53,049 bases of DNA. Origin: Tannerellaceae bacterium. GTDB lineage: Bacteria > Bacteroidota > Bacteroidia > Bacteroidales > Tannerellaceae. Below the pieces are notes generated by a model, which saw only the letters and a program-made list of their open reading frames with translations, did no database searches and had not been told where the DNA came from. The DNA is taken from positions 1 to 53,049 of the forward strand of contig JAISBL010000130.1 in assembly GCA_031266215.1 (NCBI GenBank). The letters are read 5' to 3'. The position numbers were made by a program, and so were the translations under genes. Positions 12,533 to 53,049 of this stretch are shown piece after piece (the first letter of the stretch is position 1; every line of letters begins with the position of its first letter).

Positions 12533-13261
12533 ATGCTTGAATATTCTTTGCATCCGAACCCGCTTACCGAACGGGAGGATGATTATACGGCCGCCGTGCA
12601 TCCGAAGGTTTCTTATAGTAAGGAGGAGGTCATTGACCTTATGCTTCAGCGTGGTACGCTGATGACCAGGACCGATGCCCTGGCGGTTATCAATAACCTT
12701 GAAGAGACGGTGGCTTATATTGTGGCTAATGGCGGGGTGGTGAATATGCCGCTCTTCAGTACGGGGTTCTCTGTGTCGGGGCTCTTTAATGGGGCGCTCG
12801 ATGTTTTTGACGGTACGAGGCACCGGCTTAATGTGACTGTTCGCGATGGGGTGTTGCTGCGCCGGGCGCAGAAGAAGGTGGAGCTCCATAAGGTTAATAC
12901 GGCTTCGCCGCAGCCTCAGATACTGGAGGTGAAGGACAGCCTTTCGGGTACGGTCGACAGGCTGCTTACTGCCGGTGGTCCGGTGGAGATCATGGGTATT
13001 AATATTAAGGTGGCGGGCGATGATCCTTCTTCGGGTATTTTCTTCGTCGGCCCCGACGGCGTGGAGACGAGGGCGCTGACCGTCATCACTAACAAGCCTT
13101 CGGTCGTTATGGTTGTCGCCCCCATGCTCTCCGAGGGGGCCGACTATCTTGTTAAAGTGGTCACACAGTTTTCAGCAGGCGGCCGCACACTGCAAAATTC
13201 AAAGGTTACTGTTTTCCCGACGCCCCTTATCTGCGTGTACCGTACGCACTCTTCCTCCTGA
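12533..13261 (+). CDS. HU-like DNA-binding/DUF4469 protein, copy 1
   Basis: 242 residues from the ATG at 12533; a longer frame opens at 12464 but its first 23 codons (MEGAARFLFDLICLL and on) look non-coding. Residues about 1-120 resemble the HU/IHF-like DNA-binding domain of Bacteroidales, with a helical stretch (SKEEVIDLMLQRGTLMTRTD) and a beta arm region (NMPLFSTGFSVSGLFNGALD). Residues about 140-240 match the Ig-like DUF4469 module (DRLLTAGGPVEIMGINIKV, then GIFFVGPDG). A second member is at 42558-43295. Its stop is followed after 28 bp by nine 22-bp palindromic repeats, and the second member has the same arrangement. It is divergent from the leu operon. The role is unknown; I infer chromosome-associated DNA binding. 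Confidence 0.8.
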   Translation: MLEYSLHPNPLTEREDDYTAAVHPKVSYSKEEVIDLMLQRGTLMTRTDALAVINNLEETVAYIVANGGVVNMPLFSTGFSVSGLFNGALDVFDGTRHRLNVTVRDGVLLRRAQKKVELHKVNTASPQPQILEVKDSLSGTVDRLLTAGGPVEIMGINIKVAGDDPSSGIFFVGPDGVETRALTVITNKPSVVMVVAPMLSEGADYLVKVVTQFSAGGRTLQNSKVTVFPTPLICVYRTHSSS

Positions 13262-13289: not shown

Positions 13290-13484
13290 CCACACGCCCT
13301 GTGTGGAGAGCCCACACGCCCTGTGTGGACACCCCACACGCCCTGTGTGGACACCCCACACGCCCCGTGTGGACACCCCACACGCCCTGTGTGGAGAGCC
13401 CACACGCCCTGTGTGGACACCCCACACGCCCCGTGTGGACACCCCACACGCCCCGTGTGGACACCCCACACGCTACTGTGTGGA
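13290..13484 (+). repeat. Tandem palindrome array A: nine units at exact 22-bp period
   Basis: Units begin at 13291, 13313, 13335, 13357, 13379, 13401, 13423, 13445 and 13467, every 22 bp without exception. Each core is a palindrome with arms CCACAC and GTGTGG around a 5-nt centre (GCCCT or GCCCC; GCTACT in the last unit). Spacers are variants of AGAGC or ACACC. There are no CRISPR-like unique spacers. The array starts just after the stop of the DUF4469 gene. Confidence 0.97.
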
Positions 13485-13917: not shown

Positions 13918-16900
13918 TTACTGGTTCCAGACGCGCGGCGAGGGGACGGGAGGCAGCGGACGGCGGTCTTTGAGGTCGTTCATCACTTCCTGTATCGCGC
14001 GGTCCAGTTGCTGGTCTTCACCGTTCCACTGGCGTATGGGGTCGTTGTCTATCAGTATGTCGGGGTCTACGCCGTGGTTCTCTATTATCCACTCACCCGT
14101 GCGGGGGTCGTAGCTGGTGAAGAAAGGTACGCGCAGGTCGGTGCCGTCAATGAATGGCAGCGAACTGCTGATACCTACTATCCCGCCCCAGGTGCGCGTC
14201 CCGATGAGCTTACCCAGGCCCAGGGCGCGGAATCCCCAGGGGAACAGGTCTCCGTCGGAGGCGGAGTATTTGTCGATAAGGCAGACCTTGGGGCCTACCT
14301 GTACGGCGTCGGGTATCCTGCCGATGCGGGCTGACCCGCGCGACATGGTCAGGCGGTAGGGTTCGCGGGCGAGGCGTTCGAGTATCATGGGCGATACATT
14401 GCCCCCGCCGTTGGAACGGTCGTCTATGATGAGGCCTTCCTTGTCAAGCTGGGGGTAGAAGTAGCGGGCGAATTCGTTAAGCCCTTCCACGCTCATGTCG
14501 GGGATGTAGATGTATCCTATTTTACCCCCGGAAGCCTTGTCTACCTTACGTATGTTTTCCTGTATCCAGTTGTAGTGGTAGAGCGAGTATTCTTCCTCTA
14601 TGGGGGTGATGACGATCCTGCGGGCCTGGGCGGTTACTTCGGGCCGGGCCGAGAGGAGCAGCTCTGTGGGCGTGCCGGCTTTGCCTGTGAGGAGGGCGTA
14701 AAGGTCGTTTACGCTGTTGGCGGGTATGCCGTCAACGGAGAGGATGTATTCCCCTTCCTTCGCTTCGGCCCCGGGCTGGGTGAGGGGCGAGCGTAACCGG
14801 TCGCTCCAGGAGACTCCGGGGAGTATCCTGTCTATGCGGAAGTAGCCGGTGGCGGGATGGCGGCTGACTTCGGCCCCAAGCAGTCCGGTCGGTATCCGCC
14901 CGGCGCGGCTGAGTTCGCCCGGCGTGATGTAAGCATGGCCGCAGTTAAGTTCCCCTATCATTTCGCCTATCACGTAGTTGAGGTCAAGGCGGTTCTTGAC
15001 GTATGGCAGGAGTACTTCATACTTACGCTTCATCGCCTGCCAGTCGGTACCGTGCATGTTCTCGACGTAGAAGCCGTCGCGCATGGCCCGCCAGGCTTCG
15101 CCGAATATCTGCGCCCATTCCTGTGGGTAGTCGGTTGTGATATGCAGGTTTGCAAGGCTTACCTCATCCTTCAGCTCCACCTTACCGGTGGGGATGTCGG
15201 CCACGTAAAGGGTGCGTCCCTTGCGGAAGAGGGCTTTCCTGCGCCCCGGCTCCACGCTCATGGATGCACCCTGAACGACATCTTCTTCTTTTTGCTTTTT
15301 AAGATCGTAAACCCTGGTATCTCCGTTTATGGTGTAATACACCTTATCTCCCTGGGCGTAGAATCCGCGGTATGAGCCGGCCTTAAGCGGCAGCTTAATT
15401 ATACGGTCTGTTATCCCGGCGGGGTCGAATGTGACGGCAGAGAGGCTGTCCTTCTTTTCCACCGCTTTGGCGGCCGTCGGGCCGGGGTCTTCGGTAAGGA
15501 AGGGCGAAGGGGTGGCGGCCGACAGGAGGGCGAGGTATACCCCGTTCATATCGTCGTAGACGTGGTTCCACTCCAGTGAGCCGTATATAGGCTCGAAGTC
15601 GCGGGCGGAGGTGAAGACGAGGTATTTGCCGTCGGCGCTGAAGACCGGCGACAGGGAGTCGTACCATTTATCGGTCACAGGATATTCCTTCTTTGTGGCG
15701 ATGTGGTAGACGTATACCACCCACATGCTGTTAACGCCAAGTCGCGAGTATGTGAGCCATTTGCTGTCGGGCGAGAAGTTGACGCTGCGTACCTCGCTCA
15801 GCGTATCTTTCAGGATGGTGGTGCGTGCGGCGGAGGAGAGGTCCAGGAGTATGATGCGGTTTTCCCGGTCTGTATAAACGATCGAGGCCGCGTCGGGGCT
15901 CCATCTGAAAGAGCGGATGTAGGTGTCGTTTTTGGTTGTAAGCTGGCGGGGAGGGGTCGCGGCGAGAGCGTCGCGGACGAAAAGCTCGGTCTCGCCCGTC
16001 ACGTCTGATATATAGGCGATGTACCTGCCGTCGGGCGACCACTGCGCCTCGCGCTCATGCGCTCCGGGCGTGCGGGTGATGTTCCGGGCTACGCCTTTGA
16101 GGGCGGGCAGGTCGAAGACTTCACCGCGTGCGGTGACGGCCAGGCGTTCGCCTCCGGGAGAGAGGCTGGCGGCGGTGAGGTAGCGTGCAGCGTCTTTGAC
16201 TTCACTCCGGGCGTATATATTGTCTGAGGCGAGGGTGATGCTGATCTTCTGCGGCGTGCGCGTGGCGACGTCCATCCGGTAGAGGTATCCGCCGTTCTCG
16301 AAGACTATGGTGCCGCCGTGTATGCTGGGGAACTTCACGTCGTAGAGGCTGAAGTCGGTCACCTTCGCAGTCTGCTTTGTGGAGGTGTTGTATACGAATA
16401 TGTTCATCGTACGGTCGCGGTCGGAGAGGAAGAAGATGTTGTCTCCGGCCCACATCGGGATGATGTCCTGGACGTCGTTACGGGTGATGTTTTCTACCGT
16501 TTTGGCGTCGGGGTCGTATATCCATATATCATCTGCCATGCCTCCTTTATAGTATTTCCATGTCCGGAATTCGCGCATGACGCGGTTGTATGCCATACGG
16601 CGTCCGTCGGGCGAATAAGAGCAGAACCCGCCTTCGGGCAGAGGGATGGACTCAGACAGGCCGCCGGCCGGCCCTACAGTCCGGAGGCGTCCTTCAAACC
16701 CGCTTCCTATACGGTTGCGGTAGACTATGCGGCTGCCGTCGGGCGTCCATGTCATGACGATATTGTTAGGCCCCATACGGTCGCCGAGGTCGTCGCGCTG
16801 GTTGGTGGCTGTATAGGTAAGCCTGAGCGGCTCCCCGCCTGTGGAAGGGATGGCGTAGACTTCGGTATTGCCGTCGTATTGTGCGGTGAAGGCGATTGTT

Positions 16901-32986: not shown

Positions 32987-33133
32987 CATCAAATAATCAA
33001 ACCGGCAGGACTGCACTGACGAGCCCTGCGGGCGTACGGATTACTGCACCCGCCAGGCCAATGCCGGCTACCACACCGGACTCAGGTTATCCCAAACTCC
33101 TGAAACAGCTTCCTTCCTGTCTGCCCCGTTTTT

Positions 33134-33284
33134 GGCAGGGCGCTTACCTGACGCCTGGTAAGGTGCTTACCAAGGGCTGGTAAGGTGTTTACCAAGGGCT
33201 GGTAAGGTGCTTACCAGGGGCTGGTAAGGTGCTTACCAAAGGCCTGGTAAAGTGCTTGCCAAAAGTCCCGGTAAATACCTCGCC
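33134..33284 (+). repeat. Tandem palindrome array B: seven units at 22-24 bp
   Basis: Unit starts are 33134, 33157, 33179, 33201, 33223, 33246 and 33270. The central four are 22 bp apart with core GGTAAGGTGCTTACC (arms GGTAAG/CTTACC, centre GTG); the outer units have drifted in sequence and spacing. Spacers are mostly AAGGGCT. It lies in a gene-free region (32947-33780) in which I see no DUF4469 gene or remnant. Confidence 0.95.
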
Positions 33285-33453
33285 GGGGAACTAATTGCTG
33301 CGGCGCATCACCGCCGCCGTCACTGGCGGAGAGAGGGCCGGTTACGCGCCTTAGTTCGACATAAGAGAAACCCCCGCTCAAGCGGCGCCACGTGTGCGTC
33401 TTCAGGAGCGCCTCCTTATCCCGCCGGACTCAGCTTTTTACCCGGTGTTTTTT
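33285..33453. other. Spacer between arrays B and C
   Basis: No gene is supported. It holds another relative of the dispersed motif at 33382-33400 (GCGGCGCCACGTGTGCGTC), followed by GCGCCTCCTTATCC, which resembles the sequence after the 13746 copy (GAGCCTCCTTAAAC). Confidence 0.4.
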
Positions 33454-33626
33454 TGAAGGTGCTTCATAGCCCTTATGAAGGTGCTTCATAAGCTCCTATG
33501 AAGATGCTTCATAAGGCCCTATGAAGGTCCTTCATAAGGGCTATGAAGGTCCTTCAAAAATGCTGGTGAAGCGCCTTATTAAGCGTTAGTGAAGTATCTT
33601 CTTAAGTATTAGTGAAATACCCTGCC
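33454..33626 (+). repeat. Tandem palindrome array C: eight units at 22-23 bp
   Basis: Unit starts are 33454, 33476, 33499, 33522, 33544, 33567, 33590 and 33613. The best core is TATGAAGGTGCTTCATA (arms TATGAAG/CTTCATA, centre GTG, GAT or GTC). Later units lose one arm by degrees (TGAAGTATCTTC, then TGAAATACCC), so the array decays to the right. Core sequence is unrelated to array B although the design and spacing are the same. Confidence 0.95.
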
Positions 33627-33630
33627 TGAT

Positions 33631-33667
33631 CCCTCGTCGTCGTCATCAGCAGTGACGACGACGAGGG
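33631..33667. repeat. Perfect 15-bp inverted repeat
   Basis: CCCTCGTCGTCGTCA (33631-33645) and its exact reverse complement (33653-33667) surround TCAGCAG. It follows directly on the last unit of array C and could be a single enlarged palindrome of the same class or a strong hairpin. Confidence 0.9.
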
Positions 33668-33707
33668 CAGGTGGTTGATTTTCGGACATAGAAAACCCGG
33701 GGTAATA

Positions 33708-42357: not shown

Positions 42358-42387
42358 TTTGCAGGCGCAACGGATGCGTCCTGCAAA
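42358..42387. repeat. Hairpin element upstream of the ATPase island
   Basis: Outer arms TTTGCAGG (42358-42365) and CCTGCAAA (42380-42387) and inner CGCA/TGCG form a near-perfect stem around ACGGA. The centre, GCGCAACGGATGCGTCCTGCA, resembles the dispersed motif GGCGCCACGGACGCGTTCTGCA at 13746-13767, differing at several bases. It lies 15 bp before array D. Confidence 0.65.
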
Positions 42388-42401
42388 CATTCAACCCGGA
42401 G

Positions 42402-42546
42402 TTGACCGAGCTGTCAACCCTGCATTGACCGAACTGTCAACTCAGCATTGACCGGGCTGTCAACACGGTATTGACAGAGGTGTCAATACGGCATTGACTT
42501 AGGTGTCAACACAGGGTTGGCACCTAAGTCAACCCTGTGTTGAATG
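42402..42546 (-). repeat. Tandem palindrome array D: six units at exact 23-bp period
   Basis: Units start at 42402, 42425, 42448, 42471, 42494 and 42517, each 23 bp apart, with a half unit at 42540. The first core is TTGACCGAGCTGTCAA (arms TTGAC/GTCAA, six-base centre). Centres and spacers vary (CGAACT, CGGGCT, AGAGGT, TTAGGT). The array lies immediately 3' of the second HU-like/DUF4469 gene (stop at 42558), as array A lies 3' of the first. Confidence 0.97.
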
Positions 42547-42557
42547 TTTCCCGTTCG

Positions 42558-43295
42558 TCATGCGAATGTCAGTACCTGGTCAAAAGTGATACTGCGGGGC
42601 TCTTTCAGGATGTAGCCCACGGTGTACTGTGTGATTATTTCCAACGTACAGGTCGAACTCATTGGAACCGACGGTATGACGACCATAAGTTCCGAAGGGT
42701 TGTTGATCACTATGTCCGTAGGATCGACCTTCACAGTAGCGCCGCTGTCGCCGTGGAAATAGACGCCTATCGAGTCGTATTTGCCGTCGCCGGCGATTTT
42801 CAGCCTGCTGCCGCTTATGCGGAGGTTGCGGTCGACGGTGAGAAGGTTGTTTATTGACCCGGTCTTGACGTCGAGCACCTGGGCGATGTACCCGTCGGTA
42901 TTGGGAGCCCCCTGTATCTCTACCGTGATGCTGGGGATTTCTTTACGCATAAGGGCGCCCTGGTGAAACTCAAAGATGATGGTGTGCTTGTCGGGGTCGT
43001 ACTGACCGAGTGGGTTGTTGACCACTCCCTTTACGTTTACCGAGGCTGTGAACCATCCGGTGTTGATAGAATAACCGTCGCAGAGCTGGTAACCCATCTC
43101 CTTAAGCCACAGTTCTACGGCATGCTCCATAGCGGCGGCCGTTACGTCCGCCCCTCCGCGGGAGACGGCGATCTCACATACTTCGCTGATATTGAGCGAA
43201 CGATCCGCAATTACACGGATGGAATAGTCATCAGGGTCTTCGGTGAGATAGTTCTTGTACAGGTTTGCCCTGATCTTGTGAAAGATGTTTGACAT
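42558..43295 (-). CDS. HU-like DNA-binding/DUF4469 protein, copy 2
   Basis: 245 residues, same design as the gene at 12533-13261 but strongly diverged. The N-terminal HU/IHF-like part begins MSNIFHKIRANLYKNYLTED and includes ISEVCEIAVSRGGADVTAAA and SINTGWFTASVNVKGVV. From about residue 145 the Ig-like DUF4469 module reads NNLLTVDRNLRISGSRLKIA and GVYFHGDSGATVKVDP. Conservation is better in the C-terminal than the N-terminal half, as would be expected if the DNA-binding part is adapted to the adjacent array, which differs from that of copy 1. A terminator hairpin lies in its 5' leader. Function unknown. Confidence 0.82.
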   Translation of the reverse strand: MSNIFHKIRANLYKNYLTEDPDDYSIRVIADRSLNISEVCEIAVSRGGADVTAAAMEHAVELWLKEMGYQLCDGYSINTGWFTASVNVKGVVNNPLGQYDPDKHTIIFEFHQGALMRKEIPSITVEIQGAPNTDGYIAQVLDVKTGSINNLLTVDRNLRISGSRLKIAGDGKYDSIGVYFHGDSGATVKVDPTDIVINNPSELMVVIPSVPMSSTCTLEIITQYTVGYILKEPRSITFDQVLTFA

Positions 43296-43454: not shown

Positions 43455-43491
43455 GCACGTACGCGCGCACGTGTGTGTGTGTGTGTGTGTG
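43455..43491. repeat. (GT)10 microsatellite in a 37-bp alternating purine-pyrimidine tract
   Basis: GT repeats ten times at 43471-43490 and is preceded by GCACGTACGCGCGCAC, so alternation is unbroken over 37 bp. Such tracts slip readily and can adopt Z-DNA. It is about 160 bp upstream of DUF4469 copy 2, in its likely promoter or leader region. Confidence 0.9.
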
Positions 43492-43497
43492 GTGTGT

Positions 43498-49573: not shown

Positions 49574-49657
49574 ATATTAAGGTTTTTAAAAGGTGTAATA
49601 ATTCATTTTTGGATATCTGCGCCGCAAAAATATTAAATAAAAAGACATCCGCCATAG

Positions 49658-49867
49658 GCTTTCGGAGAACTATCCCGCCGTGCTCCTTAGATGTGGGTTG
49701 ACAGGCACCGAGCAGGAGTTGATGGTGATTGTGAATGTCCTCAGAGTACCGTCGCAACCGTTATACACTGGAGTTACGGTAATAGTAGCCTGTCCGGCCT
49801 GGGCGGCTGTAAACTGGGGCAGGTTGCCCGTCCCGCTTGCGGCCAGACCGATAGAGGTATTGCTGTT
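49658..49867 (-). repeat. Duplicated sequence, left copy
   Basis: The 3' end of the 829-residue protein gene is nearly identical to 52840-53049, with about ten differences over some 207 bp. Similarity stops just past the stop codon, so the duplication boundary lies at the gene ends. The offset between copies is 3182 bp. Confidence 0.95.
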
Positions 49868-52695: not shown

Positions 52696-52839
52696 AAAAG
52701 ATTTTCTGAAAAAGACAGTTAGCGGTAATGTTTCAAGTGGCAAACGCTAAACCTGCGCAGAAGAAAACCGCGAGGCAGGAGAGGAGTCTGGCCAATATCC
52801 CACATTTGAGACTTCCTTTTCCATCCCTCGATAGCCGCG

Positions 52840-53049
52840 GCTTGCAGAGAACTATCCTGCCATGCTCCTGAGATGTGGGTTGACAGGCACCGAGCAGGGG
52901 TTGATGGTGATTGTGAATGTCCTCGGAGTGCCGTCGCAACCGTTATACACTGGAGTTACGGTAATAGTCGCCTGTCCGGCCTGGGCGGCTGTAAACTGGG
53001 GCAGGTTGCCCGTTCCGCTTGCGGCCAGACCGATAGAGGTATTGCTGTT
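52840..53049 (-). repeat. Duplicated sequence, right copy, cut by window edge
   Basis: Matches 49658-49867 with about ten substitutions. The full extent of the duplication cannot be seen. Confidence 0.95.
52852..53049 (-). CDS. Paralogue of the IgGFc-like secreted protein (C-terminal 65 residues only)
   Basis: A minus-strand frame with its TAG stop at 52852-52854 runs open to the window edge. It encodes NSNTSIGLAASGTGNLPQF and ends SVPVNPHLRSMAG, differing from the end of the 829-residue protein at a few positions (for example Ser to Met-containing RSMAG). The start lies outside the window, so the rest of the protein cannot be judged. Confidence 0.85.
   Translation of the reverse strand, partial: NSNTSIGLAASGTGNLPQFTAAQAGQATITVTPVYNGCDGTPRTFTITINPCSVPVNPHLRSMAG

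Follow-up and report, generated by a model that had tools for sequence, protein, structure and literature searches.

Palindromic repeats lying directly behind the gene of a putative DNA-binding protein raise the question of whether protein and repeats form a pair and, if they do, which residues read which bases. The question is posed twice by a 53,049-nucleotide stretch of a Tannerellaceae genome (contig JAISBL010000130.1, positions 1 to 53,049; this whole stretch is referred to here as the window), in which two genes for HU-like proteins with a DUF4469 domain, copy 1 and copy 2, are each followed by a tandem array. A first-pass annotation had proposed that protein and site change together, with the N-terminal part of the protein as the changing element, to give a set of orthogonal pairs. 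We report here a computational analysis of copy 2, its relatives and the arrays beside them. The features of the window are as follows.

12533..13261, plus strand: copy 1, HU-DNA_bdg + DUF4469 protein with a frayed C-terminal motif (LQNSK replacing LLKxPR)
13172..13192, plus strand: copy 1 codons corresponding to the finger, SAGGRTL
13290..13484, unstranded: array A, 22-bp period, CCACAC-5-GTGTGG dyads, 3' of copy 1
33107..33325, unstranded: solo array B, TGGTAAG/CTTACCA; an array of this type also follows the C92:31090 paralogue
33348..33694, unstranded: solo array C, TGAAG/CTTCA, within a dispersed repeat of ~345 bp
42361..42384, unstranded: imperfect hairpin (GCAGG...CCTGC) bordering array D on the side away from the gene
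42390..42544, unstranded: array D, six TTGAC/GTCAA dyads in 23-bp steps with one half-site per end (direct reading, Tandem Repeats Finder, permutation test)
42558..43295, minus strand: copy 2, HU-DNA_bdg (PF14848) + DUF4469 (PF14734) protein of 245 aa (Pfam match, structure model, relatives)
42606..42623, minus strand: finger codons of copy 2, residues 225-230 (TVGYIL), a beta-hairpin tip in DUF4469 and the proposed reader

The genes and their palindromic arrays

Both domains of copy 2 passed the curated Pfam cut-offs, PF14848 with 100.4 bits (cut-off 30) and PF14734 with 72.7 bits (cut-off 22.6), and a Pfam scan at E 0.01 returned these two families only, the Pfam TIG family not being matched. 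Copy 1 matched the same two families. The dyads of array D (TTGAC-6-GTCAA on the plus strand) start at 42402, 42425, 42448, 42471, 42494 and 42517, a spacing of exactly 23 bp, and span 42402 to 42532; a single arm base deviates in the dyad at 42517 (TTGGC..GTCAA), and the terminal half-sites are TTCAA (42390-42394) and TTGAA (42540-42544). Direct reading therefore bears out the six palindromes of exact 23-bp period that had been described behind copy 2, and the half unit that precedes them is also present, although at 13 bp from the stop codon (42558-42560), as against the 12 bp claimed. The array was recovered by Tandem Repeats Finder (42391-42510, period 23, score 128) and the palindromic match of its unit exceeded that of column-permuted units (z 4.9, 0 of 300 permutations as good). 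The hairpin at its gene-distal edge overlaps a stretch, beginning at 42364, that is common to the solo D arrays at contigs C51 and C88. A GT dinucleotide microsatellite lies upstream of copy 2 (window 43471-43497) and likewise upstream of the close C92 paralogue.

As had been noted earlier, both copies in the window carry an array on their 3' side, and the arms of array A (CCACAC/GTGTGG) and array D (TTGAC/GTCAA) have no sequence in common. The palindrome permutation test of array A was borderline (z 1.9, p 0.057). The accompanying claim that the two proteins diverge most in their N-terminal part is weakly true, identity being 23% in the N part and 28% in the C part.

Among the genes examined, an array 3' of the gene is the rule of the family. 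A periodic array followed the stop codon in 128 of 144 full-length HU-DUF4469 genes, each above the maximum of 144 shuffles; the genes sampled were mostly the best by E-value from longer match lists rather than random, and the loci came mostly from the source genome's own family. The period was 23 in 112 of the 128 arrays, the arms varied gene by gene, and 109 arrays started at most 60 bp from the stop. In the autocorrelation controls an array signal was found in 18/136 5' flanks and 2/109 distal 3' stretches, and Tandem Repeats Finder detected arrays in 102/137 3' flanks versus 6/136 5' flanks. Ninety-seven of the 123 arrays tested were palindromic at p<0.05. In the named genomes, arrays stood behind 62 of 78 genes, all with period 23 and 39 of them palindromic at p<0.05. 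DUF4469 itself was present (E 1e-10) in 67 of the 123 genomes of the source genome's family and in 12 of the 395 genomes of a phylum-wide sample, the source genome being among the 12; at the phylum-wide loci an array above threshold lay within 700 bp in 20/24 cases (one of them 564 bp distant, and one locus repeating an earlier one), and 16 of the 20 were palindromic at p<0.05. Three distinct 23-bp arrays stand in series behind one gene at locus L096 (2900-3592), amounting to ~26 units over nearly 700 bp.

Since the arrays lie directly 3' of the gene and probably inside transcripts, they might work as hairpins in RNA, whether as part of the 3' UTR, as terminators or as processing sites, rather than as DNA sites. 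Such a role would be expected to leave a G.U signature at imperfect arm positions, yet mismatches in the arms showed no excess of G.U over A.C (G-T 73 and A-C 78 when scored about the nearer axis, 43 and 61 about the farther one), and the finger-arm association described below also argues against it; we consider the RNA alternative very unlikely.

The source genome (2.7 Mb in 134 contigs, 87% complete) gave 13 profile matches to PF14848 and 14 to PF14734. An array followed 7 of the 10 copies long enough for judgement, with C36, C24 and C9 lacking one, and the arms were TTGAC (twice), CGTACG, TGGAAC, CTTAAGA, CCACAC and TGGTAAG; the CGTACG array is periodic, its palindrome not being significant (p 0.107). 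Contigs C30, C31, C33, C22 and C111 terminate inside HU-DUF4469 genes, so that the assembly may collapse recent duplicates and the copy number may be underestimated. A pattern of two D dyads (at most 3 mismatches) gave 26 overlapping matches on each strand, all confined to six genomic places, the reversed control giving none; two of these places have a gene, one has a gene remnant and three have neither. C-type arrays occupy 21 genome places among the matches listed, two of them at contig ends, and no cognate gene was found for the C-type solo array. Arrays B and C stand side by side in the window (33107-33694) and are also neighbours at C120, C48, C13 and C3, their orientation relative to the neighbouring genes differing among places.

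Other repeats were observed in the same genome. Period-21 tandem arrays form a second class (C24:5411-5701 and 15393-15563, C30:32477-32693, C36:13556-13814, C9:34847-34927), with some palindromic units (cttgcgcaag, cacgtacgtg). A 211-bp direct repeat, 95% identical between its copies, occupies window positions 49657-49867 and 52839-53049, the second copy being the very end of the contig. Two familiar kinds of element were considered for the arrays and rejected. A CRISPR array does not fit, the units being contiguous, 22-23 bp long and composed of short arms and short spacers with no long unique spacers. A plasmid iteron or partition site, or carriage by phages, was set aside after tblastn of copy 2 (E 1e-5) matched 4 of 72,556 plasmid and 2 of 50,697 phage records.

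The part of the protein that tracks the arms

A model of copy 2 built from 49 sequences (mean pLDDT 87.3, pTM 0.49) superseded a first one from 10 sequences (pLDDT 76). Its N domain is HU-like, with Foldseek and VIA-align matches to HU and IHF chains, and its C domain is predicted to be an IPT/TIG-like Ig fold; the relative placement of the two domains in the model is uncertain. The only PDB relative by sequence (E 0.01) is BVU_2165, PDB 4fmr. Between the motifs TQY and LLKxPR of DUF4469 lies a short hypervariable loop (residues 225-230 in copy 2), which forms the tip of a long hairpin in the model (strands 215-225 and 228-237) and is called the finger here; it was first suggested as the matching element by reading the sequences side by side. 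Likeness of the C domain to Rel domains was dropped as a functional sign, as VIA-align puts other Ig-like domains ahead of them, with sugar-enzyme domains aligning better (Z to 11.4).

The association of protein parts with arms was measured by a half-site comparison of arrays, which replaced a whole-unit similarity without dyad register. The first test set was restricted to arrays palindromic at p<0.05 with a period of 22-24 (96 of 123; 95 after duplicate removal). The held-out set consisted of 53 arrays, unfiltered for palindrome or period, from Chryseobacterium, Flavobacterium, Treponema, Prevotellaceae, Tannerella and others, 9 of 62 having been removed as duplicates; two of the 53 proteins were at least 95% identical to earlier-sampled genes outside the first test set. 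In partial Mantel tests on the first set, whose permutations, like those of all the tests on finger-arm association below, ignore shared ancestry, the loop reached p 0.0005, the rest of DUF4469 p 0.003 and the N-domain p 0.28; the per-column test fell short of significance (0.214 vs 0.230 for 95% of permuted maxima), and two other windows, at residues 76 and 195, equalled the finger. The held-out set gave a partial r of 0.271 for the finger (p 0.0005), -0.151 for the N-domain (p 0.997) and 0.235 for DUF4469 without the finger (p 0.0005), and the best 9 of its 246 windows started at residues 218-226, covering the finger, a result unchanged by removal of two proteins at least 90% identical to earlier ones. 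For all 148 arrays the values were 0.150 (p 0.001), -0.024 (p 0.89) and 0.077 (p 0.002), respectively, and the best 14 of 246 windows fell at the finger.

The proposal that protein and site change together is thereby supported far beyond the two copies of the window, with the finger of DUF4469 as the part that tracks the arms, whereas the N-terminal part, which had been put forward as the co-changing element, is not supported in that role. Judged by the refuting condition stated along with the proposal, arrays that bear no relation to the protein clade, the version resting on the N-domain fails. HU domains bind DNA, and the raw correlation of arms with N identity is slightly positive (0.124), as might be expected if the HU domain read the arms; nevertheless, no residual association was left in any set, and loci L138 and L163 combine N-domains that are 98% identical with unrelated arms. 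N-domain specificity was dropped after the tests in the first, held-out, combined and dereplicated sets and is barely credible.

Comparison of pairs of proteins follows the same pattern. Where N-domain identity was at least 85%, mean half-site similarity was 0.362 for unlike fingers (141 pairs; background 0.346), 0.415 for half-like fingers (45 pairs) and 0.757 for like fingers (42 pairs, 28 of which share one Chryseobacterium finger, TQGALL). Where N identity was below 0.6, the 40 pairs with like fingers averaged 0.625, with 70% above 0.5 (background 0.346 and 12.7%), and arms were not shared in 12 of the 40; in the seven remote pairs with an identical finger (GGNTKQLL, AVGSLL or AVSSLL) the arms were alike in all seven (0.75-0.93). 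The most telling of these is L234, which has the finger GGNTKQLL and the arm TATACG in common with L139 and others at 23-27% identity in the N and 38-44% in the C part. Nearest-neighbour prediction of arms gained little from the finger, scoring 0.450 by finger, 0.437 by C-domain and 0.399 by N-domain. Two like pairs of loci from distant genomes of the phylum, L370/L379 and L373/L382, have a finger position of another style (VRTGLLNGSSIRTG, VRSILNGTTTIRSG) and arms that are again like (GGGATAAT, TAAGG).

The signal weakened when each finger string was represented by one protein. In the held-out set (n 37) the finger was no longer significant (r 0.083, p 0.09-0.10), windows at residues 201-207 and 41-48 outscored it, and DUF4469 without the finger gave r 0.26. 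In the combined set (n 124) the finger windows came first, yet their 0.067 was below the 95% permuted maximum of 0.080; the finger given N and C retained r 0.057 (p 0.005). A graded finger-arm relation, weak when each finger string is counted once, was accordingly given up: the evidence rests on identical and near-identical fingers, graded similarity predicts little, and our confidence both in finger-arm recognition and in the overall model was lowered as a result. The values for DUF4469 without the finger, together with the lead of residues 201-207 in the dereplicated held-out set, would fit a reader elsewhere in this domain, alone or with the finger; as the finger windows lead in the combined set, dereplicated or not, this alternative appears unlikely.

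Finger and array might also be associated merely as neighbours, co-inherited as a linked cassette or recently duplicated, with no recognition between them. They are close (median 74 bp from finger end to array start), and at L147/L176 a differing finger and array are set between flanks that are conserved on either side. Moreover, among the 41 pairs that combine an identical finger with an N identity of 85% or more, 28 belong to the one recent TQGALL group of Chryseobacterium (mean 0.69), and the one-per-finger signal is weaker. Linkage would be expected to act equally on the protein tail that lies between finger and array, but with the finger accounted for, residues 232-238 add 0.050 and residues 239-244 add -0.030, next to nothing beside the 0.167 that the finger adds. 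Furthermore, identical-finger pairs from remote genera (L143/L252, L139/L234) differ in their codons and array spacers and have the same arms. We regard linkage as an unlikely explanation, on a par with a reader elsewhere in DUF4469.

The finger undergoes fast amino-acid change: non-synonymous and synonymous differences numbered 800:348 in its codons and 7338:15332 in the rest of the gene, as raw counts over 175 overlapping pairs without site correction. Within one class of fingers a residue can be set beside a base pattern. Fingers of the form x[VI]G..L had TTG in 11 of 11 arrays and those of the form x[VI]S..L had TTTA in 6 of 6, the difference being Gly or Ser at residue 227; among other arrays TTTA occurred in 9/131 and TTG in 55/131. 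This class was picked post hoc and some of its members are related, so that the Fisher p of 8e-5 is optimistic.

The term orthogonal pairs fails as a strict description. The finger TQGALL recurs at five loci of Chryseobacterium taeanense and three of C. taichungense, with the arm GGTCAA at six of these eight, and the repeated TQGALL and SKNSAFL fingers in this genus contradict strict orthogonality. On these comparisons of sequence, the finger is probably the recognition element, with the adjacent dyad arm as its candidate target.

Binding model and possible consequences

Copy 2 and its relatives would be sequence-specific DNA-binding proteins for the tandem palindromes 3' of their own genes. 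The HU/IHF-like N domain may dimerize and bend or wrap the DNA, and the hairpin tip of DUF4469 would read one dyad arm; from the dyad symmetry we infer one dimer per 23-bp unit (two helical turns) and one finger per arm, so that the array would seed a row of dimers. This model, in which a dimer of the HU type places its IPT/TIG-fold fingers on the arms of the dyads beside its own gene, is the best that we can offer and seems somewhat better supported than not. As finger and array are ~75 bp apart, a single recombination tract could exchange both and yield a new pair.

The likeliest outcome of such binding may be local control, in the form of autoregulation, a switch or a roadblock, of the co-directional and often cell-surface operon after the array; granted finger-arm recognition, we would put this at even chances. 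The nearest upstream gene of at least 150 codons is on the same strand in 114/142 cases, and the nearest downstream gene of that size in 96/111 cases of the first set and 28/48 of the named genomes, with the array in the gap. In 95 downstream proteins scanned, LRR_5/BspA was the commonest match (7), followed by TonB plug (5) and others in smaller numbers; the families that recur most have to do with the cell surface (BspA-type LRR, TonB plug, SusD, glycoside hydrolases, polysaccharide synthesis), with few of each. A single fixed neighbour was sought and rejected, since the downstream (95 scanned) and upstream (102 scanned) proteins are equally mixed. In plasmid records of Parabacteroides distasonis, one array-bearing copy has glycosyltransferase genes around it, and a second such copy precedes fimbrillin genes. 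The promoter motif TAnnTTTG is in small excess after arrays on both strands (25 and 20 vs 13.6). In Treponema denticola, deletion of trtA lowers the family member TDE_2259 (log2 -5.18) as well as the BspA gene TDE_2258 (log2 -5.69; PMC12724145), and in two further mutants the two genes do not change in step (PMC7586716). Several points speak against local regulation: solo arrays occur away from gene copies, several paralogues share one specificity, downstream co-direction drops to the above 28/48 in named genomes, and the promoter-motif excess is small and two-stranded. With neighbour and mutant data mixed, local control of the next operon is a reasoned guess.

The main rival on the outcome, itself compatible with finger-arm recognition, is that gene and array are chiefly a selfish, MITE-like dispersed element which spreads and decays, with a protein that works for the propagation or maintenance of the array and not for an operon of the host. 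This would account for the three places with solo D arrays and the 21 listed places with C-type arrays, as it would for the gene remnants that adjoin arrays at C110, C93, C38 and C122 and for the resemblance to BrickBuilt, a 23-nt tandem-repeat MITE of Porphyromonas gingivalis (PMC4596501, as far as the parts consulted describe it). The same holds for L158, where, compared with L157, ~200 bp that include an array with new arms (CTGTC) lie at the gene-side edge of an older TTCCC array common to both; in this case a new specificity may have arisen, one element may have inserted into another, or L157 may have lost the segment. A selfish origin sits less well with a protein that has two known Pfam domains only, neither a transposase, with genes that are often co-directional with both neighbours, and with fingers that change mainly by amino-acid replacement; we consider it rather improbable.

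Local control could be carried further, to a very large natural collection of protein-operator pairs across Bacteroidota and Treponema in which specificity resides in five or six residues of an IPT-like hairpin, a residue-to-base code is readable, finger and array are exchanged as a cassette and each surface operon has a private regulator. Drawn as it is from sequence patterns, this extended reading is tentative and on balance doubtful, and the choice of Gly or Ser at residue 227 for TTG or TTTA would be the first entry of its code on the same doubtful footing.

Comparison with known systems and significance

The domains themselves are already known, and what we consider new is the pairing of protein and array and its proposed reader. 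The structure 4fmr (BVU_2165) has the same two domains as copy 2 and is titled a putative DNA-binding protein; we found no site, adjacent array or reading finger described for it. With the HU/IHF nucleoid proteins the copy 2 family shares its N-terminal fold, and it differs from them in an extra IPT/TIG-like domain, a variable finger and an apparent arm specificity that differs between close paralogues. The C-terminal domains of the Rel-homology proteins NFAT1 and TonEBP have only the fold in common with copy 2, which is bacterial and fused to HU. TDE_2259 has the same Pfam pair as copy 2 and, in the parts of the source consulted, is not studied as a self-site system (PMC12724145).

The nearest known counterpart of the DNA half of the pairing is BrickBuilt, whose 23-nt tandem repeats occur in 19 intergenic copies and can form stem-loops (PMC4596501). 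Its likeness to the solo arrays B, C and D lies in the 23-nt tandem repeats and the several intergenic copies. The consulted parts of that paper name no protein partner, whereas the family arrays described here adjoin HU-DUF4469 genes; a leader and a tail with terminal inverted repeats belong to the BrickBuilt type, and the flanks of the solo arrays were compared by BLAST. A search of the open-licence literature on DUF4469, its Pfam and PDB identifiers, or palindromic arrays with HU or nucleoid proteins in Bacteroidetes found no account of such pairs.

A domain-of-unknown-function family with an HU-like part is thus provided, in most cases examined, with its own candidate binding site beside the gene and with candidate reading residues. 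The well over a hundred candidate pairs are material for learning a protein-DNA code, and the family is a potential source of orthogonal binders as well as a candidate kind of partner for the 23-nt minisatellites of Bacteroidales. It also offers a testable case of specificity and site changing together as DNA neighbours. If the proposed recognition is true, protein and DNA site would be matched naturally and on a large scale in many bacteria, through families of small proteins that each use a tiny variable finger for the palindrome adjacent to their gene.
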